Shown here: one piece after another, positions 1 to 8,516 of the stretch
Numbering within the stretch: the stretch's first letter is position 1
How the letters are laid out: each line of letters opens with the position of its first letter
DNA from: Sphingomonadales bacterium
Lineage (GTDB): Bacteria > Bacteroidota > Bacteroidia > NS11-12g > UBA955
Direction of reading: 5' to 3'
Length of the DNA: 34,477 nt
Assembly: GCA_016872175.1 (NCBI GenBank)
Contig: VHBA01000026.1
Span: forward strand, 1-34,477
The notes under the pieces: generated by a model
Told to the model about the DNA's origin: nothing
The model's input: the letters and a program-made list of their open reading frames with translations, nothing else
Database searches by the model: none
Position numbers and translations under genes: made by a program

Positions 1-273
1 TGCCGCCCAACAGAAAAATAATTCCAATGATCATGGCATACCGGCGGGTTTCTTTGGGCTTTAGTCAGCAAACGAGCATCGCGCCACTTAGGGTTCCTGC
101 GGCATGGGCCATAAAGGAAACAGATAATGCAGGGGCAGGACATTTTTTAAATCGGCCGGTGCAGGAAACCATTGATTGCCCAGCCATACAAAACACATAT
201 TGATGATACTGCCTGCATAAAGTGCAGCAATGACGCGTAATGGTTTATGAAGTAACCCAATATTTAAATTCAT
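1..273 (-). pseudogene. Small multi-pass membrane protein gene, frameshifted and with an internal stop; runs off the window
   Basis: An open frame starts at ATG 273 and runs to a stop at 88-90, giving a hydrophobic N-terminus (membrane segment about residues 12-32) and a Pro/Ala-rich loop. Near 113-120 the sensible reading moves to another frame, which gives FMAHAAGTLSGAML and then, after a TGA at 65-67, LKPKETRRYAMIIGIIFLLG running off the left edge. The composite resembles a small Bacteroidota membrane-protein family that I know only as hypothetical, with an N-terminal membrane segment, a PP-rich loop and a conserved FLAHALGT-type helix; this is recalled from memory, not searched. One missing base near 115 plus one nonsense change would explain the break. 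It could be real decay or sequence error near a contig end. The coding frame of the next gene ends only 22 bp upstream. Confidence 0.55.
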
Positions 274-295
274 AATCTGATTATTTAATTAAAAA

Positions 296-1588
296 TTAGT
301 CATGTTCTGAGTTTGAGAACCTTAAATCAGTAACGCTTAATTCTTCATATCTGGATATTTTACCATTTATTAATTTTATTTCTATTTGTACATCGCATTT
401 CTGCCATTTAGATTTACTTGGCCTATAGCAAGTAAAACTGCTTTTAAAATTGCAAATACAAGCATTGCCTGAAGAATATGTTTTGAATGATTCGCTATTT
501 ATAGTGTTTTGCGTATTCACAAAATCAGAAGATTCAGAGTAAGTTCTATTTAGACTTTCTGGATTTGTGTTTGTTAAATTGATATATTTTTCAATGTCAT
601 AATTGAAGTAGTTGTTAGCATCAAATTGACCATTCGAAAGATCATTGAACATGTTTTCAATCAATATCTTGCAATCTTCATCACTACAAATAGGGTTCAG
701 ATTGGTATTGTTATCTGTCTGGTCTTTAGCGTAATCGCCGTAAAATTTTATTTCAGAAATACAAAGGTCATTCCATCGGTTTCCAACATTGGTGTTCAAA
801 ATTTCTATTTTTATAAATTTAGTTCTGTATTTATGACTGAGATTTAATGTTTGATAATCTTGTGTTTCAATGGGATTAAATGTTTCTGAATTTCCATCAC
901 TAAAAGTAATACGAATTTTAGAAACCCTAGAATTATTATTATAGTATTGTCCATAACTTCCGTTAATTATTCTTATTTTATATACATCATAATAACCATC
1001 TTTTAAATTAAATTTTGCAAATGATTCCTTCCCGTCGGGTGGGTCTGGAGTCCACCAAGTATTAGGGTTGTCATCTATCATGTTCTTACTGGCAAACAAG
1101 GTATTGTCTGCAAAATGTTCTCCTGATGACTCAATATCTGATACTTCAATAGAATCTGAATTATTAATAGAATAAATAGAATCTTCTACTTTATTGTGTG
1201 CAATTTCCGTTTTAGCTGAAATACTGTCATGGTTTGAAGGTGTGGTTGTATCGTTGTTTTTATTTAAATAAATTATTAAAAATACAATAAATATTAATAA
1301 AATCAATATCAAGATAGGTACACTGAGTAAAGGTTTTGCGTTGTTTTGGGTGTTTTTTGCCTGACTATTTGCATCAGGATAGTTTGTTTGTTGGTTTGCA
1401 TTTGGGAAGAAGACTCTTAATTCAGGTATGTTTTTTGCGAGTGTCCATTCAATACCATCTCTGTAAACCAATGTTTCAGGTCCTATCTTTTCTATTAAAA
1501 CATCCCGGGTGAAGGGTCCAAAAGTCACTCCATCTCGAGTGTAGTAGTATAAATAATTATTATCTCCTTTGTTTAAATTAAGTGCCAT
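296..1588 (-). CDS. GYF-like domain, transmembrane, discoidin-like domain membrane protein
   Basis: The 430-residue protein has three parts. Residues 11-60 (YYYTRDGVTFGPFTRDVL, then WTLAKNIPEL) fit the GYF_2/DUF4339 fold, a short cytoplasmic interaction domain. Residues 87-108 are one strongly hydrophobic transmembrane helix after a Q/N-rich linker. Residues 160-285 look like a discoidin-type beta-sandwich of the sort attached to some secreted NADases: N-x-x-D-x-N-x-x-T-W-W near the start, then IRIINGSYGQ, SRVSKIRITFSDG and ISEIKFYG. The last 140 residues have several cysteines and resemble a small secreted NTF2-like domain, which is uncertain. Topology would be N-terminus in, C-terminus in the periplasm. 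The gene is far more AT-rich than the housekeeping genes and sits beside a recombinase island, so it is probably acquired. Its function is unknown; binding a surface or glycan ligand is inference. Confidence 0.75.
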   Translation of the reverse strand: MALNLNKGDNNYLYYYTRDGVTFGPFTRDVLIEKIGPETLVYRDGIEWTLAKNIPELRVFFPNANQQTNYPDANSQAKNTQNNAKPLLSVPILILILLIFIVFLIIYLNKNNDTTTPSNHDSISAKTEIAHNKVEDSIYSINNSDSIEVSDIESSGEHFADNTLFASKNMIDDNPNTWWTPDPPDGKESFAKFNLKDGYYDVYKIRIINGSYGQYYNNNSRVSKIRITFSDGNSETFNPIETQDYQTLNLSHKYRTKFIKIEILNTNVGNRWNDLCISEIKFYGDYAKDQTDNNTNLNPICSDEDCKILIENMFNDLSNGQFDANNYFNYDIEKYINLTNTNPESLNRTYSESSDFVNTQNTINSESFKTYSSGNACICNFKSSFTCYRPSKSKWQKCDVQIEIKLINGKISRYEELSVTDLRFSNSEHD

Positions 1589-1970
1589 ATGAAGTTTTAT
1601 ATATTTTAGAGTTAAAATTTATCATTGAATATCACTTATTATTTATTTTGTGAAAAAATATTAATAAAAATATTATTATACGAAAATAAAAATGTAAAAT
1701 AAAACATAATACATGAATTATCTGTCCTAATTTAAAATATTATTAACACTAATTTTACTGTTTTTCTCATTAAAAACTTACATTCTTTGCAGCAAAATTA
1801 ATCAAATACTATCTAATTACCTAAACATCAAAAATCAAAAAATGGATCTAAATACATAGATATTGGGTATTTCATTTTACTTATTTTATGAACCCATCAT
1901 TGATTTTATGTAAAAAACTGTATAATTGATAAGAAAAAATTACAGAATTATCGTGGAAAACAACACAGCC
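1589..1970. other. AT-rich intergenic DNA without a recognisable gene
   Basis: About 380 bp of very AT-rich sequence lies between the GYF-domain gene and the left 21-bp repeat. No frame here looks coding, and I see no RNA gene, tandem repeat or convincing hairpin. It presumably holds the promoter of the minus-strand gene starting at 1588. The left part of the frame that later encodes the recombinase-type fragment opens at 1933, just after stops at 1927-1932. Confidence 0.6.
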
Positions 1971-1991
1971 AGGGGATTACTCCACCGTCAC
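1971..1991 (+). repeat. Left copy of the 21-bp direct repeat (candidate attL)
   Basis: This stretch is identical at all 21 positions to 4124-4144, and 6 of the 8 bases before it also match (1963-1970 against 4116-4123). The core reads GGGGATTACTCCACCGTCAC from 1972. The right copy covers the last six codons and stop of glmS, so the left copy is a displaced duplicate of a gene end. This is what site-specific integration at a gene's 3' end leaves behind. Confidence 0.8.
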
Positions 1992-2058
1992 TGAACCTTC
2001 CCTCACGCAGGACTTTCGTCCCGATAAAAATACACCAACACGGACAGATTTCCTAATC

Positions 2059-2355
2059 ATGACCGTGGTTCTTACCTCTTCCAACCTTTGGATGTCACCT
2101 TATTCATCGCACCAAACGGAACTGTTCCATCTCATCAAGACCCAACACGAGGACGGGGGTAAAAACTTCAAACAGATTTCGGATTGGTTGAATGACAATG
2201 GTTATAAGACCACGCGGGGTAAAGTATTCACCCAAGGTCATGTTTGGTCGATGTATAAGAAGAAGAAAAAAAGTAACGAACGGTTCGGAAGGGAGTTCGT
2301 ACCGTCATTCAAGTCCGTGACCATTGATGTATGGGATTCTTTACCACCAAAATAG
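2059..2355 (+). CDS. Small recombinase-domain protein (serine-recombinase DNA-binding part)
   Basis: The 98-residue product has, at residues 37-68, the pattern FKQISDWLNDNGYKTTRGK followed by VWSMYKKKKK. This is the helix-turn-helix stretch typical of the recombinase domain of serine recombinases (I-x-x-W/Y-L-N-x-x-G-x-x-T-x-R-G). No catalytic resolvase domain precedes it. The start is uncertain: ATG 2059 and ATG 2092 (MSPYSSHQ) are both possible, and the frame is open back to 1933, through the left repeat. It may be a truncated recombinase, or one of the short stand-alone proteins of this type seen in Bacteroidota. Expression and activity cannot be judged from sequence. Confidence 0.6.
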   Translation: MTVVLTSSNLWMSPYSSHQTELFHLIKTQHEDGGKNFKQISDWLNDNGYKTTRGKVFTQGHVWSMYKKKKKSNERFGREFVPSFKSVTIDVWDSLPPK

Positions 2356-2505
2356 TTCTCAGGTGGTCACTACTTTTGGTTGGCGTGACAGTATAACCAC
2401 CAATCTGTTATATTTCAAATAGATTTATTACCGTATGTCGTAGGTATATATAGGGGATATTGTTATGGGGTATTGGGTTCTTGGTTTTTTATAGAGATAT
2501 GGTGT

Positions 2506-2530
2506 ACTTAGTCACTTGTGACCACTAAGT
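2506..2530. repeat. 7-bp inverted repeat around the resolvase-fragment stop
   Basis: ACTTAGT at 2506-2512 and ACTAAGT at 2524-2530 are perfect inverted copies, with a smaller CAC/GTG pair inside. It overlaps the last codons of the minus-strand resolvase fragment. There is no long T run on either strand, so a terminator is doubtful; a remnant recombination site is an alternative. Confidence 0.3.
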
Positions 2531-2814
2531 TTTACTTTCTTGATTTCTAATACCTTATTTACTTTGGTTATTGTTGTTGTACTACATCCTACTATCTTTC
2601 CTATTTCTTCATAAGAGTATGTTCCTCGTTTGAGGTAATCTATTATTGTCCTATTCTTCTTTTTATTCAAGAATACATCTATTGATTCCCTCGTACCTAT
2701 TCTACGTCCCGAATACAATCCTTTCTCCTTACGGATTTTTATACCTTCCATCTGTCTTTCACGGATGAGAGATTTCTCAAAAGATGACATGGTTGATAGT
2801 ATACCCATCATCAA
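2512..2814 (-). pseudogene. Resolvase/invertase-type serine recombinase, C-terminal fragment
   Basis: The 100-residue frame begins exactly at the long helix E region of small serine recombinases: MMGILSTMSSFEKSLIRERQ, then EGIKIRKEKGLYSGRRIGT. It continues with a helix-turn-helix (YSYEEIGKIVGCSTTTITKV) that would bind DNA at the crossover site. The catalytic N-terminal half of about 100 residues, including the nucleophilic serine, is missing. In frame upstream there is only an Asp-Leu pair and then a TAA, so the break lies at about 2815-2823. Its neighbour upstream on the same strand, the zinc-module reading frame, ends at 2832. I read it as a remnant left by an insertion or recombination event. 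Confidence 0.75.
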
Positions 2815-2831
2815 GTCTTAACTAAGTTATA

Positions 2832-3095
2832 TTACTCGGAATTTGTCTCATTATTTCTTTTGGTTTTACCAATATCACACCAAAAACAAAAGTAAGTAAC
2901 ACTATTTGGGTATCCTTTACAATTACTACAAAAAACTAACCCTTGACCATTGCAATTTATACAAATTCGTCCATCAGTATCATACATTCGCCCATTACAA
3001 TAATTACAATATGTTTTACCATTCTTGCATGTTCCATACCATCTACTTTCACATCCAACTATTATGCCGTCACCATCACAATGTACACAAGTTCT
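2832..3095 (-). pseudogene. DnaJ-like four-CxxC zinc module, in-frame continuation of the lipoprotein gene
   Basis: Reading on in the lipoprotein's frame after its TGA (3096-3098) gives 87 more codons to a TAA at 2832-2834. The peptide contains CVHCDGDG, CNYCNGRM, CINCNGQG and CSNCKGYP, four evenly placed CxxC units of the CxxCxGxG type. This is the pattern of the zinc-binding centre of DnaJ/Hsp40 and related zinc-ribbon proteins. There is no suitable start codon of its own, the only in-frame Met being between the second and third units. It is therefore probably the C-terminal domain of the upstream gene, cut off by a nonsense change (TGG or CGA to TGA) or by a sequence error. Programmed readthrough is possible but has no support here. 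Confidence 0.6.
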
Positions 3096-3653
3096 TCAAT
3101 CTGATTGGTAAATAGGACTTTCTGATTTAGTTTTATTTTTTTCATTTTGAGAATTCATATCCTCTTGATTTGGATAATCACCATTTTCTTGTCTTATTGT
3201 ATTATCACTTAATTCATCATCTCCCAATTCAACGGTGTATTCATTTACATCTTTATCATCTGAACGTGGATTACCTCTTACTAAATCAATTATACCACAA
3301 GACCGCATTGCAATTTTCCAACGTCCATTTATCTTAAACAATTGAAATTTAAAATCATTATTATTATCTTTCACACTTACTTGAGACTCATCATCATTTT
3401 CAGTTTCCAATTGAATAGTATAACTCGGATTTGCTGTAAATGAGTTTTTATTAATTTTCCAAAGGTCTTCAAGAACTTCAATATTTTCATTTGAAGTATT
3501 TCCCGTAACAAGGGTTCTTGTTTTACTGAAATTTCCTTCGTGGATTGAATTTAAAAAATCTGTCACTGTTTCAGTTGGTGATTTAGTCGAGAACGAATTA
3601 CATCCGAAAAAACAAATTGAAACAAGTAGAAATTGAATTGTGATTTTATTCAT
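3096..3653 (-). CDS. Lipoprotein with NTF2/DUF4878-like domain; probably truncated by a TGA
   Basis: The 185-residue product has a lipoprotein signal ending in FFGC with the lipidated Cys at residue 18, so it should be anchored in the envelope. Residues 25-115 follow the DUF4878/NTF2-like pattern: SPTETVTDFLNSIHEGNFSK, a central helix, then beta strands closing with LFKINGRWKIAM. The rest is acidic and Asn/Glu/Ser-rich, a likely flexible linker. The frame stays open beyond the TGA into a zinc module at 2832-3095, so the original protein was probably about 272 residues. It is cargo of the glmS island and AT-rich like its surroundings. Its function is unknown. Confidence 0.65.
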   Translation of the reverse strand: MNKITIQFLLVSICFFGCNSFSTKSPTETVTDFLNSIHEGNFSKTRTLVTGNTSNENIEVLEDLWKINKNSFTANPSYTIQLETENDDESQVSVKDNNNDFKFQLFKINGRWKIAMRSCGIIDLVRGNPRSDDKDVNEYTVELGDDELSDNTIRQENGDYPNQEDMNSQNEKNKTKSESPIYQSD

Positions 3654-3683
3654 TATAAATTATTTTCAAATACAAATTAAGAG

Positions 3684-4205
3684 TTGAACTCATATATTTC
3701 CAAGAAGAATAAAGAGTTGGAATCACTCAAAGAAACCAAATCCAAGTTGGAAGAAGGTATCATTGATGTAGAGAGGAAGAACTATATGGGTGAATTCCAA
3801 TCCGACAACATATACACCACACTCAAAAAACAACTCAACAAGGAACACCTATCAATTTCATCCAAAATAGACTCCATCCAATCCCACCTATCCACCATTG
3901 GAAACGAATCTAAATGGTTCTCAATTATAGACCGATTTAAGGACATCATTTCAAATCATGACCCATTGACCCAACCACAGAAGAAAGAGGTTCTACGGTC
4001 GATTATTGACCATATAAAGGTATCATTTGACGGTATCAATAAGACCCATGGATTGGATGTGAATTTTAGGATTCCAATGGTGTTCGTTGAACAGTTTTTG
4101 GGGTCGAAACCAAGAACCCAGCGAGGGGATTACTCCACCGTCACACTCTTCGCCAAATTCCTTGGCTGGTCTACATTGCAGCCGCGCATAACGGCAATGT
4201 GGTAG
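3684..4205 (+). pseudogene. Large serine recombinase, C-terminal coiled-coil fragment
   Basis: The frame opens after a TAA at 3678-3680; TTG 3684 is only the first possible start. Residues 1-75 are a Lys/Glu/Leu-rich coiled coil. They are followed by WFSIIDRFKDIISN and KKEVLRSIIDHIKVSFD, the helix-strand tail usual at the end of large serine recombinases in Bacteroidota, where the motif tells the integrase which att sites to pair. Catalytic, recombinase and zinc-ribbon domains are absent. From about codon 148 the frame reads through the right repeat and then antisense through the end of glmS (QRGDYSTVT onward), so the last 20 or so residues are not native. The breakpoint at about 3680 abuts the promoter side of the lipoprotein gene. 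Confidence 0.65.
4124..4144 (+). repeat. Right copy of the 21-bp direct repeat (candidate attR, inside the glmS end)
   Basis: This copy is identical to 1971-1991. On the glmS strand it covers the codons for the conserved C-terminal SVTVE, the stop, and six bases beyond. Because these codons are essential to GlmS and hardly vary, they make a dependable attachment site. Confidence 0.8.
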
Positions 4206-5971
4206 CTCAGTAACTGTAAAGGAATGGTGTTGATCAGCGGACTGAAGCTTTCCTCGGTTTCGGGTACTTCAATGATGTGGTCAGCAAGGTTGTTAAGGCC
4301 GGTATTTCCCTCGGTTACAATGGCAATGATCTTTCCTTTGCGGGCTTTCACTTCCTGAATATTGCTCACCACTTTTTCGTAGTGGGCACTGTTGGTGGCA
4401 ATCACCACCACGGGCATGTTTTCATCAATCAGGGCAATTGGGCCGTGCTTCATCTCGGCGGCAGGGTAACCTTCTGCGTGGATGTAGCTGATTTCCTTGA
4501 GTTTCAGTGCACCCTCCAAGGCTACGGGAAAATTATAACCCCGGCCTAAATACAGGAAGTTGTGTGAGTCTTTGTACAACTCGCTCAGTTTCACAATTTC
4601 ATCGTTCAGTTTCAGGGCCTTTTCCACCTTTGTAGGAATGCTTTCCAGCTCATACATTAGTGCCCTGAGTTGCTCACCGGTGAGCGCGCCGCGCAGTTTG
4701 CCCATGGCCATGGCAATCAGTGCGAGAACAGTCACCTGGGCTGTAAACGCCTTGGTACTGGCTACGCCAATTTCAGGTCCGGCGTGGGTGTAGGCCCCCG
4801 CGTGGCTTAAACGGGGTATGCTGCTTCCTACTACGTTGCAAACACCAAACACGGTCGCTCCTTTGTTTTTGGCAAGTTCCATCGCTGCCAGGGTATCGGC
4901 GGTTTCGCCACTTTGAGAAATGGCCAGGATCAAATCATCGCCATAAATCACAGGATTGCGGTAGCGGAATTCACTGGCGTATTCCACTTCCACGGGAATG
5001 CGGGCAAATTCTTCAAACAAATATTCTGCTACCAGACCGGCATGCCAACTGGTACCGCAGCCAATGAGAATGAGGCGGTTGATGTTTTTTAGTTTTTCCT
5101 CATAATCTCGGATGCTGCGCATGATAATTTCAGCGCTCATGGGGTCTATGCGGCCCCTGAAGCTATCCAAAATACTCTTGGGTTGCTCGTATATCTCCTT
5201 GAGCATGAAATGCGGATAGCCGCCTTTTTCCAGCTGCTCCAAATTCATTTCAAGTTCATGTATATAAGGAGTCTGAATTTCGTTATTGATGGTTGTGATG
5301 GTGAGTTCATCGTTTTCCACCACGGCAATTTCACCATCGTTCATGTAGATTACCTGACGGGTGTATTCCACGATGGGCGTGGCATCAGAGGCCATGAAAA
5401 ACTCTCCGCGTTCTTTGCCTATACCCACCACCAGTGGACTTCCCTTGCGGGCTGCAATCAGGTGTTCGGGGTGGTTTTTACTGAGGATAACAATGGCATA
5501 AGCGCCTACCACCTGCTTCAAGGCTACACGCACAGCTTCATGCAGGTTCAGGCCTGCATTTACCATGATGTCTTCAATCAGGTGAATGAGTACCTCGGTA
5601 TCGGTATCGCTGCTGAAGGTGTGCCCACGACGCATTAATCCTTCCTTGATGGTGGCGTAGTTTTCAATGATGCCGTTGTGAATCACGGCGAGGTCGCCAC
5701 TTTGGCTGAGGTGGGGGTGAGCGTTTACATCGTTGGGAACACCGTGCGTGGCCCAGCGTGTGTGCCCCATACCGGTGCTGCCCTGGGTGTATTCCCCTGC
5801 GGCTGCTTTTTCAAGGTCAGCTACTTTGCCTTTCTGTTTGAACACACGCAGGTCACCATTGAGTAATGCAACCCCGGCACTGTCATAACCGCGGTATTCA
5901 AGGCGTTTCAGCCCTTTGATGATGATGGGGTAGGCCTCGCGATGGCCGATGTAAGCAACAATTCCGCACAT
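4130..5971 (-). CDS. glmS: Glutamine--fructose-6-phosphate aminotransferase (isomerizing)
   Basis: GlmS makes glucosamine-6-phosphate from fructose-6-phosphate and glutamine, the first step to UDP-GlcNAc for peptidoglycan and LPS. The 613 residues match the usual length. After Met removal the N-terminal Cys2 (MCGIVAYIG) is the glutaminase nucleophile. EYRGYDSAG (25-33), HTRWATHG (70-77) and HNGIIEN (98-104) are further class II amidotransferase signatures. Two SIS sugar-isomerase domains follow, with CGTSWHAG near residue 300 and ISQSGETADT about 40 residues later. The C-terminus PRNLAKSVTVE is the conserved end. A TAACTTTG promoter box lies 10 nt upstream. No glmS ribozyme leader is possible in the 85-bp upstream gap. 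The 3' end doubles as attachment site of the island. Confidence 0.97.
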   Translation of the reverse strand: MCGIVAYIGHREAYPIIIKGLKRLEYRGYDSAGVALLNGDLRVFKQKGKVADLEKAAAGEYTQGSTGMGHTRWATHGVPNDVNAHPHLSQSGDLAVIHNGIIENYATIKEGLMRRGHTFSSDTDTEVLIHLIEDIMVNAGLNLHEAVRVALKQVVGAYAIVILSKNHPEHLIAARKGSPLVVGIGKERGEFFMASDATPIVEYTRQVIYMNDGEIAVVENDELTITTINNEIQTPYIHELEMNLEQLEKGGYPHFMLKEIYEQPKSILDSFRGRIDPMSAEIIMRSIRDYEEKLKNINRLILIGCGTSWHAGLVAEYLFEEFARIPVEVEYASEFRYRNPVIYGDDLILAISQSGETADTLAAMELAKNKGATVFGVCNVVGSSIPRLSHAGAYTHAGPEIGVASTKAFTAQVTVLALIAMAMGKLRGALTGEQLRALMYELESIPTKVEKALKLNDEIVKLSELYKDSHNFLYLGRGYNFPVALEGALKLKEISYIHAEGYPAAEMKHGPIALIDENMPVVVIATNSAHYEKVVSNIQEVKARKGKIIAIVTEGNTGLNNLADHIIEVPETEESFSPLINTIPLQLLSYHIAVMRGCNVDQPRNLAKSVTVE

Positions 5972-5981
5972 AAGTGAAATG

Positions 5982-5989
5982 CAAAGTTA
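5982..5989 (-). promoter_or_regulatory. Bacteroidota -7 box of glmS (TAACTTTG)
   Basis: The minus strand reads TAACTTTG, a full match to the Bacteroidota -7 consensus TAnnTTTG, 10 nt before the glmS ATG. Transcription would start within a few bases of the start codon. No well-spaced -33 TTTG is evident; a TTTG 23 bp upstream is slightly too far. Confidence 0.45.
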
Positions 5990-6056
5990 TACAAGGTATA
6001 CCACAATCGGGGCAAATGTCCCCAAGTTGTATAGGAATAAATACAGGAGAAACTTC

Positions 6057-8516
6057 TTACCACGAATTATTCCGTCTATCGAAGTACTCAAAGTTGAGTT
6101 TGAAACCAACTACAGGTTTCTCAAATAAGTTGCTGTAACCCACAGCGTAGTATATACCCAGTTTATAACGGTCTCTCCAAATGCGAATAAGCTTATCAAT
6201 ACCACCGTAAACTTCGTAAAACAGCATGTTACGTCTCTCCGGCGCATACAAAATATTGGCTCCTGCAGATTCGCGCAGCTTAAGCAAACGCATGAACGGT
6301 ATTTTATTGATGAGTGAACCGTTGAAATGGTGCCTGAAGTGCCCTTCTATGAAGCGTTTGTAGGTAACGAATGTTGAGTCGAGGGTTTGAAACGCATACA
6401 TAGGTGGTGTAAACACACTGGGGTCGCCACGGCGTTGGTAGCGAAAATCAACGGGACTCAGGTTGTTTTTTCGCATAAAACTGCCACTCACAATCCTGTA
6501 TTCACTTCTTCCCAGCAGTCCCAGCGGAAAATCCTGTTCAATTCTGTATTCAAGATAACTATAATCAATATTGGAGCCCATTACTCCGGGAATGGCATGA
6601 TTCAGGTTGATACTAAATGTTGGCCAGCGGCTTCCCAAAATAACCTTCTGCCGTGGTTCGCGAATGTATTTTTGAAAGGGCGTATAGCTTAGGGTGAAAT
6701 TGCCAAAAAACGCACGATTGGTTCTGAATGAAGTAGGAATATTGTTCTCAAATAAACTATCTGCAAATCCGTCAAAAGTCAAATTGCTGATATCCTTTCT
6801 TTCTGAAAATTCTGCCTGCACCCTGAGGTAAAGTCCATTGATTAATTCTCTTCTCACATACACATCAGCATGGGTGTTTTGGTAGAAATTGCCCCTACGT
6901 GCCAAATCCAGAAAAGCCGCATTTGGATTGATGAAATTAAAATCACGCCCTGCTGTGGCCGAAAATACCCCTCGGTGAAAAGGATCGAAAGTAGTGGTGA
7001 AGATGACCGTTCCGCGAATGTCTTTGTTGTTTATACCGTATGATAAATTCTCAATCAGCCTGATGTCGCGTTTGTTTTTAAAACGTCTTTCAAATGTATT
7101 CCACAAGGTAACACGGGTTCCACCGGGAAACCATGGCTGAACAATAAACATCATAGGCTGAAAGTCCATGTAGTAGCCTTTTTCACGATTCTGGTATTCC
7201 TGACCTTTGAAAAACAATTTAGCAAACGTCACTTTGTTTTTGTCTTTTTCGATACTATCCAGATAGGTTTTGCTGCTTTGTACCCGTTTTATACTGTCGG
7301 TGCGTGTAATAAACCGGATTTCGGTATTGTTCAGCGGGGTAGTGCGTTTCTGACTCCAGAACGCACTGTCGCGGTCATAGGCACTGTCTGTGGCCGAACT
7401 TACCTCCAGGCCAAAATGATTTTTTGGAAACGTTTTGTTGAGTTCGTATTTATTGTATTTGACAAGCGTATAGCCGCTGAATTTACCCTTACCTGCAGCA
7501 GCATGATAGTCAAAACGTTGTTTTTCAATGGTTAGCCAGCTGTCTTTGCTTAGGATGAACTCCTGCCGCATGGTAAATTTATCGTATTCATTAAGCTGAT
7601 TAACAGGATAATTCAGCTCGGTTCGGTAGATATAAAACAGGGTATCCACCAGATGGATTTCCCCGCTGAAAACGGCATTGGATATGGATCGCGGCGACAT
7701 CTTAATTTTAAGAATGCGCTGTCCGGCATCGTTTTTATAGCTGCCTAAAAACTGGAATTTATAGGCCAGCAGTGCTGTTCCGGAAATGGGTGACATCACC
7801 GGCATGTCCCCAATTCCACGGATGCGAATGAGGTTTTGGTAGAAATTAAAATCACCTTCGGTGGTACTGAGGTAAAAAAGCCCTGATACATCCCCAATCT
7901 TTTTTACACCGGTACGTATTTCCTTGATTTTTCCCGGAGGTTGAAAATCGCGCTGCAACAAGATTTCAGCCATATTGATATTGGGCTCATCGTCTTTGTT
8001 TTTCTTCTTTTTTTTGTTTTCCAGCGCTGTGTCGGGCTCATGCCAAATATTTTCTTTCTTTTTGGGCGGATTGTATTGCTCAAAGGCCCGTATATAAACT
8101 TCTGCGCTGGACGAAGGAAATCGCGATGCCCAATAGTCTTTTTTTTCGATGGCTTTGCGCATCATTTCCGGTCCCGGATCTGTCCATTTGCGGGTAATCT
8201 GAATTTCACCAACAGACTTGGCCAGTTCGGGTAGAATAACATTCAGTGTGTCATCTTTCTTGTCCAGAACTACTTTCAGGCTCACGCGCTGATAATTGGG
8301 ATGGTTGAAAACCACTTCATACTCACCTGATCTAAGGTCAAATTTATAGTATCCTGAACCATCTGTATTGCCCACCATGGAGCCATTGGTAATGAAAATG
8401 CTGACATCCGGGATGGGGGAACGGCTGCTGTCTGCCACATATCCGCTGACCGTAAAATACTGTGCTTTGCCTGAAAAGACGGTTAAAAAACAGAGAATGA
8501 AGGCGGCAAATCGCAT
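6057..8516 (-). CDS. DUF5686-type outer-membrane beta-barrel protein with carboxypeptidase regulatory-like domain
   Basis: The 819-residue protein begins with a signal peptide ending near SGKAQ. Residues 20-95 form a carboxypeptidase-regulatory-like (CarboxypepD_reg-like) beta-sandwich: FTVSGYVADSSRSPIPDVSI, then GNTDGSGYYKFDL. The remainder has alternating amphipathic strands, many aromatic residues and an ending in F-x-Y-F-D-R-R-N, as in DUF5686 proteins, which are predicted outer-membrane barrels. A Lys/Glu-rich insert lies at about 165-180. It is one of three minus-strand envelope genes in the order lptA-like, this gene, glmS, with gaps of 76 and 85 bp, so they may or may not be co-transcribed. 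The molecular role of DUF5686 is not established to my knowledge; transport or barrel-related work is inference. Confidence 0.8.
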   Translation of the reverse strand: MRFAAFILCFLTVFSGKAQYFTVSGYVADSSRSPIPDVSIFITNGSMVGNTDGSGYYKFDLRSGEYEVVFNHPNYQRVSLKVVLDKKDDTLNVILPELAKSVGEIQITRKWTDPGPEMMRKAIEKKDYWASRFPSSSAEVYIRAFEQYNPPKKKENIWHEPDTALENKKKKKNKDDEPNINMAEILLQRDFQPPGKIKEIRTGVKKIGDVSGLFYLSTTEGDFNFYQNLIRIRGIGDMPVMSPISGTALLAYKFQFLGSYKNDAGQRILKIKMSPRSISNAVFSGEIHLVDTLFYIYRTELNYPVNQLNEYDKFTMRQEFILSKDSWLTIEKQRFDYHAAAGKGKFSGYTLVKYNKYELNKTFPKNHFGLEVSSATDSAYDRDSAFWSQKRTTPLNNTEIRFITRTDSIKRVQSSKTYLDSIEKDKNKVTFAKLFFKGQEYQNREKGYYMDFQPMMFIVQPWFPGGTRVTLWNTFERRFKNKRDIRLIENLSYGINNKDIRGTVIFTTTFDPFHRGVFSATAGRDFNFINPNAAFLDLARRGNFYQNTHADVYVRRELINGLYLRVQAEFSERKDISNLTFDGFADSLFENNIPTSFRTNRAFFGNFTLSYTPFQKYIREPRQKVILGSRWPTFSINLNHAIPGVMGSNIDYSYLEYRIEQDFPLGLLGRSEYRIVSGSFMRKNNLSPVDFRYQRRGDPSVFTPPMYAFQTLDSTFVTYKRFIEGHFRHHFNGSLINKIPFMRLLKLRESAGANILYAPERRNMLFYEVYGGIDKLIRIWRDRYKLGIYYAVGYSNLFEKPVVGFKLNFEYFDRRNNSW

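Follow-up and report, generated by a model that had tools for sequence, protein, structure and literature searches.

DUF4878 (PF12870) is an NTF2-like family in which, according to the available text of its description, no conserved polar residues hint at catalysis (PMC3924330). The same text names a conserved tryptophan near the end of the domain. Cysteine units of the CxxCxGxG type belong to a different group, the central cysteine-rich domain of DnaJ (PF00684) and BSD2 (PF25436), and in BSD2 two units follow the spacing CxxCxGxG-x3-CxxCxG (structure 6ekb). The window analyzed here, i.e., the whole stretch of 34,477 nucleotides, contains a minus-strand reading frame in which a lipoprotein with a DUF4878 match and an array of such units are separated by a single TGA. 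The features of this frame are as follows.

3096 to 3653, minus strand: lipoprotein open reading frame of 185 amino acids, ending at the TGA at 3096-3098
3600 to 3653, minus strand: signal peptide up to a lipobox-like FFGC, with Cys18 as the likely anchor (read by eye)
3309 to 3584, minus strand: DUF4878 (PF12870), NTF2-like domain (Pfam E 6e-5, 23.8 bits against a cut-off of 24.1)
3096 to 3098, minus strand: in-frame TGA separating the lipoprotein from the array, the one TGA inside the joined frame
2835 to 3095, minus strand: 87-codon continuation with a six-unit CxxCxGxG-like array and 12 cysteines, followed by a stop at 2832-2834
3078 to 3089, minus strand: unit 1, CVHC
3027 to 3053, minus strand: unit 2, a split pair C-x7-C aligned with the CxxC of relatives
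2997 to 3008, minus strand: unit 3, CNYC
2952 to 2963, minus strand: unit 4, CINC
2919 to 2930, minus strand: unit 5, CSNC
2877 to 2888, minus strand: unit 6, CFWC

The joined frame, which runs from 3653 down to 2832, comprises 273 codons for both parts, and the 87 codons past the TGA continue the lipoprotein frame with no intervening bases. A preliminary description of this DNA had placed the 185-codon open reading frame, the TGA and the same-frame continuation correctly; all of them are on the minus strand. It had also proposed a lipoprotein-like signal, an NTF2-like domain and DnaJ-like cysteine units, and these assignments were supported, the domain (DUF4878) with a score near the cut-off. 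Its count of four CxxC motifs and eight cysteines has to be corrected, since the tail includes five CxxC motifs (CVHC, CNYC, CINC, CSNC and CFWC) and a split pair, CESRWYGTC, which together account for 12 cysteines.

The head, i.e., the lipoprotein part, begins with a hydrophobic stretch followed by FFGC at Cys18, as judged by eye. In a profile search of the genome, the DUF4878 match reached 23.2 bits, or 26.1 bits when the frame neighbors were included, which is over the cut-off of 24.1; at the stricter E value of 1e-4, the window head was absent from the DUF4878 listing of the phylum. The structure predicted for the head from one sequence had a mean pLDDT of 36.5, unusable for recognizing an NTF2-like fold, and a second model (pLDDT 49.2) was too poor for a fold search. 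The head resembles DUF4878 lipoproteins in its signal peptide with a cysteine and in the domain match, and it has a tryptophan near the domain end (GRWKI), where the available text of PMC3924330 names a conserved one. DUF4878 matches were found in 5 of 107 genomes of the order, namely the window, the lipoproteins L314 and L315, and two proteins identified by eye as ABC ATPases (L316 and L317), which were excluded from the relatives. In the phylum, 12 of 375 genomes had matches at E 1e-4. The 14 relatives examined are therefore L314 and L315, from the same family, and the 12 from the phylum genomes. Unlike the window frame, none of the 14 has a cysteine array in frame, as ascertained by searching their frames for CxxCxG. 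Twelve stop 4-8 residues past the domain, and the other two, those of the same family, carry a comparable polar tail (48-49 residues). At one of the 14 loci (L370), a single CxxCxGxG occurs in a different forward frame.

Pfam profiles gave scores under their cut-offs for the tail. BSD2 (PF25436) matched the joined frame with E 0.042 (14.5 bits, cut-off 27) and the DnaJ central domain (PF00684) with E 0.068 (13.9 bits, cut-off 32.7), while no J domain or substrate-binding domain was found in the joined frame with Pfam up to E 1. The nearest solved structure is BSD2 (6ekb, E 0.0067). Units 4 and 5 share the BSD2 spacing, and the corresponding DNA pattern matches the window at 2914-2963; the tail differs from these domains in having six pairs, one of them split. 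To compare the tail with array proteins encoded on viral contigs, 29 of 77 candidate viral segments were taken into an alignment and 48 were left out. All 12 tail cysteines were in register with the 29 viral rows, and the tail showed insertions of one residue before unit 2, five inside unit 2 and three before unit 6. A profile HMM of the 29 rows scored the tail at 40.2 bits (bias term 17.7), while the maximum among 200 shuffles of the tail with fixed cysteines was 23.3 bits. Because the cysteines are in register and the score exceeds that of the cysteine-fixed shuffles, we conclude from the sequence that the tail is a true cysteine array. The same HMM scored cellular array frames at 23-48 bits (best domain), and these scores do not place the tail closer to viral than to cellular arrays. 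Weaker tail matches in 71 of 395 class genomes, the window's included, at E up to 0.1 were dropped; among 29 loci inspected, those read on the correct strand and containing cysteines were DnaJ (L005, L022) or cytochrome-like (L013), and among weak phylum matches L036 and L050 were heme-type CxxCH proteins and L047 was DnaJ.

The continuation also has the properties of coding DNA. The preference for A or T at the third codon position persists beyond the TGA, and the codon-position bias is alike in head and tail. A first-order Markov model built on the surrounding insert was used to generate 40,000 random stretches; 55 of these lacked a stop over 87 codons, and four CxxC motifs occurred in none. 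Shuffling the tail protein kept four CxxCxG in 0 of 100,000 cases and reached five CxxC in 605 of 100,000. In 19 of 20 other long open reading frames of the window, the stretch past the stop was open for 0-57 codons; the remaining one was open for 399 codons, entering a neighboring open reading frame with an ATG as its sixth codon. The tail, in contrast to that same-frame pair, has no ATG, GTG or TTG in its first 36 codons. Its only candidate start is the ATG at codon 37, so that no start of its own would keep all the cysteines. A separate zinc protein translated from its own start was rejected, as this ATG leaves three CxxC motifs.

The preliminary description had called for a search with the joined 273-codon translation for homologues running through the TGA. 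None was found. The window itself was the only strong match when relatives were searched with the head (1 of 97) and in the genomes of the order (1 of 108). In the phylum, 44 of 395 genomes matched at E 0.05, but these were the window and 43 weak, short partial matches (best E 0.0012). Scans of phages, plasmids, viral contigs and genome contigs, done with short exact peptide patterns whose reach is limited to close relatives, gave no intact homologue. None of the 6 congeners and none of the order genomes covered by the searches has the gene, and the pairing of DUF4878 with a DnaJ-like cysteine array was seen nowhere besides the window in these searches.

The surroundings of the gene are those of a decaying mobile element, the main parts of which are listed here.

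4130 to 5971, minus strand: open reading frame assigned to glmS by its sequence, i.e., the host gene in which the insertion site lies, with matches in 7 of 7 genomes from the genus
3684 to 4205, plus strand: large serine recombinase, C-terminal fragment matching positions 452-584 of 651 in the phrog_95 integrase profile (E 1.9e-8)
4112 to 4144: first copy of a 33-bp repeat, located at the 3' end of glmS, a putative att site
1959 to 1991: second 33-bp repeat copy, 91% identical to the first, putative other end of the element
2059 to 2355, plus strand: recombinase fragment (PF07508, E 1.8e-4, 22.2 bits against a cut-off of 21.1; phrog_95, E 0.003)
2512 to 2814, minus strand: DNA invertase, C-terminal fragment (match to phrog_125 with E 6.7e-14)

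Two serine integrase fragments and one DNA invertase fragment thus lie between the repeat copies. The 3' end of the larger integrase fragment crosses the repeat into antisense glmS, and the invertase fragment, which also matches NF009949 (E 6.6e-6, far below its cut-off), begins 17 bp past the stop of the array. About 3.86 kb separate the end of glmS (4130) from the next conserved gene (273), and the insert exceeds the stretch between the repeats in length. Its GC content is mostly near 0.30, with 0.44-0.47 at 1951-2400, compared with 0.40-0.55 in 4051-6900. In G005, a congener, the glmS stop is followed after 68 bases by the start of the next gene, which matches window positions 88-273 (47% over 53 aa, E 3.8e-12). 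A flanking repeat, a recombinase at the end of the element, here as a fragment, and an uninterrupted region in a relative were all found, and recombinase-like stretches lie beside antisense glmS in G071 and G075 too, judging by match positions. These results indicated that a serine-recombinase element lies at the 3' end of glmS, that it carries the lipoprotein gene as cargo and that it is in decay. The region corresponding to window positions 273-4144 varies among congeners: G005 has no small genes after glmS, and G006 has others, with signal-like starts. In G004 the contig stops here, and the region after glmS lies outside the matches in G001, G002 and G003. The locus is an insertion spot linked to glmS whose small envelope genes vary within one genus. 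The same low-GC stretch encodes a protein with GYF_2 and NADase-type discoidin domains (296-1588, minus strand). Beyond the insert, the gene at 2-237 (minus strand) aligns to its counterpart in G005 as two segments that lie in different frames, so this gene at the end of the contig may contain a frameshift.

Taken at a probability of about 0.58, our reading is that the locus represents one envelope-protein gene that recently lost its array to a nonsense change in the course of the decay of the insert. The original product would have been a periplasm-facing lipoprotein consisting of a signal peptide, an anchor cysteine, DUF4878, a polar linker of 70 residues and the C-terminal array. The six DnaJ/BSD2-type units would bind about three zinc ions and, by analogy with DnaJ-like zinc-finger proteins of plastids, might serve as a holdase or thiol module. 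After the change at 3096-3098, translation would end behind the linker, the array would be lost and the anchored DUF4878 part could still be made. The carrier would be the serine-recombinase element, whose recombination genes are already fragments. The preliminary description had suggested a very recent mutation; a recent event is plausible. It had also named homologues ending at the TGA and array homologues with starts of their own as evidence against a single gene, and the results point both ways. On one side, the 14 DUF4878 relatives are without an array, small stand-alone array-like open reading frames exist (L287 and L289, each with its own ATG) and no intact homologue was found in the searches. 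On the other side, no start within the tail would preserve its full set of cysteines, and the majority of array relatives lie in longer proteins. Overall, we judge this to be a broken gene whose architecture is plausible but rare, and the stop codon is most likely a product of ordinary gene decay rather than of a new decoding mechanism.

The same relatives and stand-alone frames lend some weight to a doubtful but possible alternative, in which the two parts of the locus have nothing to do with each other. The first would be a full DUF4878 lipoprotein ending at its natural stop, and the second a piece of an array from a different gene, without its head, which a rearrangement of the element left in the lipoprotein frame. 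Since none of the 14 relatives continues into an array, and 12 end shortly past the domain, a lipoprotein ending at the TGA is an ordinary product, and truncated genes do occur in the surroundings. A rearrangement could bring an array into frame with a 1-in-3 chance. Nonetheless, such a chance match of frames is a requirement of this explanation, no bases intervene between the two parts, their codon bias is alike and the long polar linker ahead of the stop would fit a junction of two domains.

An improbable alternative is that the TGA is missing from most cells, as an assembly error or a strain variant, in which case the population would carry an intact gene. The assembly is a draft of 91 contigs, and all 12 cysteines and the entire frame are preserved past the stop, both of which speak for this explanation.

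Readthrough of the TGA at a low level, by which a small share of the lipoprotein would carry the array, is very unlikely. The intact tail fits it, and a survey (PMC7918605) reports, in the portion available, that in-frame stops are widespread in bacterial genes and that many are under purifying selection. The preliminary description had mentioned readthrough among its explanations, but no positive sign of it emerged from tests of SelB, the tRNAs, tRNA-Trp or RNA folding. The SelB family profile gave six matches, the best with 184.8 bits and none over the cut-off of 242, and none of the 33 tRNA genes found had a UCA anticodon. Read by eye, the anticodon stem of tRNA-Trp (CCA) consists of five pairs, the outer one being G-U, unlike the 4-pair form described in the available text of PMC13092985. 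The 69 nt of RNA from the TGA on folded worse than shuffled sequences (z +1.9), 194 of 200 shuffles being at least as stable. Consequently, a selenoprotein was rejected for want of a SelB over the cut-off, a UCA tRNA among the 33 and a hairpin after the UGA; a suppressor tRNA and the 4-pair tRNA-Trp were unsupported. A genome-wide code change was also rejected, as TGA terminates 5 of the 20 other long open reading frames of the window. Since the genome is a draft, a readthrough gene could be missing from it. Least credible is a natural gate, in which leaky decoding of the UGA would add a periplasmic zinc array to a small amount of a mostly anchored NTF2-like lipoprotein, so that one gene would make two proteins differing in redox or chaperone ability.

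Array proteins comparable to the proposed original product occur elsewhere in Bacteroidota. The DNA pattern for CxxCxGxG-x3-CxxCxG was found in 18 of 395 class genomes, the window's included, compared with 4 for the reversed control, and frames with at least three CxxCxGxG units were present in 12 of the 17 other pattern-positive genomes, where they belong to longer proteins. The remaining five genomes comprise the two with the stand-alone frames L287 and L289, one (L283) in which the units lie at the end of a longer frame, and two (L295 and L296) whose matches look like chance. Taking one array protein per genome, a signal-like N-terminus was recognized by eye in 8 of the 12, though in three of these it requires a TTG start. 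Thus, the claim that the combination is unusual holds for the exact pair of DUF4878 and array, whereas the broader pairing of a signal-like N-terminus with such an array recurs across Bacteroidota, and these proteins deserve a functional test. The secreted representatives (e.g., L284, L288, L293 and L298) share the signal-like N-terminus and DnaJ-like units with the window; many have an 11-residue period, and in contrast to the window their arrays are uninterrupted and follow other N-terminal parts. Those of L284 and L298 had no Pfam domain at E 0.01, and L293, which exceeds the Pfam DnaJ cut-off, has weak TPR matches ahead of the array. L290-L293, from four Bacteroidota genomes, form a family of secreted proteins that combine TPR-like parts with a cysteine module of DnaJ type. 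A literature search for CXXCXGXG with Bacteroidetes found no paper.

A longer pattern with a 15-residue spacer was found in at least 120 stretches of viral contigs from IMG/VR (L163-L282), and a script identified at least 97 frames with three or more CxxCxGxG units from at least 93 loci. Among the matches listed, the unit spacing 11-11-15-11 was present in 72 of 97 viral frames and in 0 of 17 cellular frames, a comparison that is biased because the viral set was selected by the spacer. The window units, spaced 11-11-15-11-11 in the alignment, share with the viral arrays the register of the 12 cysteines and a D and a G in the long spacer; the viral proteins differ from the window in their flanking parts, and no signal peptide was seen by eye in the 40 viewed. 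Two viral examples had no match in PHROG and one had none among 50,697 phage records. Many of the proteins encoded in these IMG/VR stretches, e.g., L168 and L184, are approximately 250-310 aa long and have the CxxCxGxG array in mid-protein.
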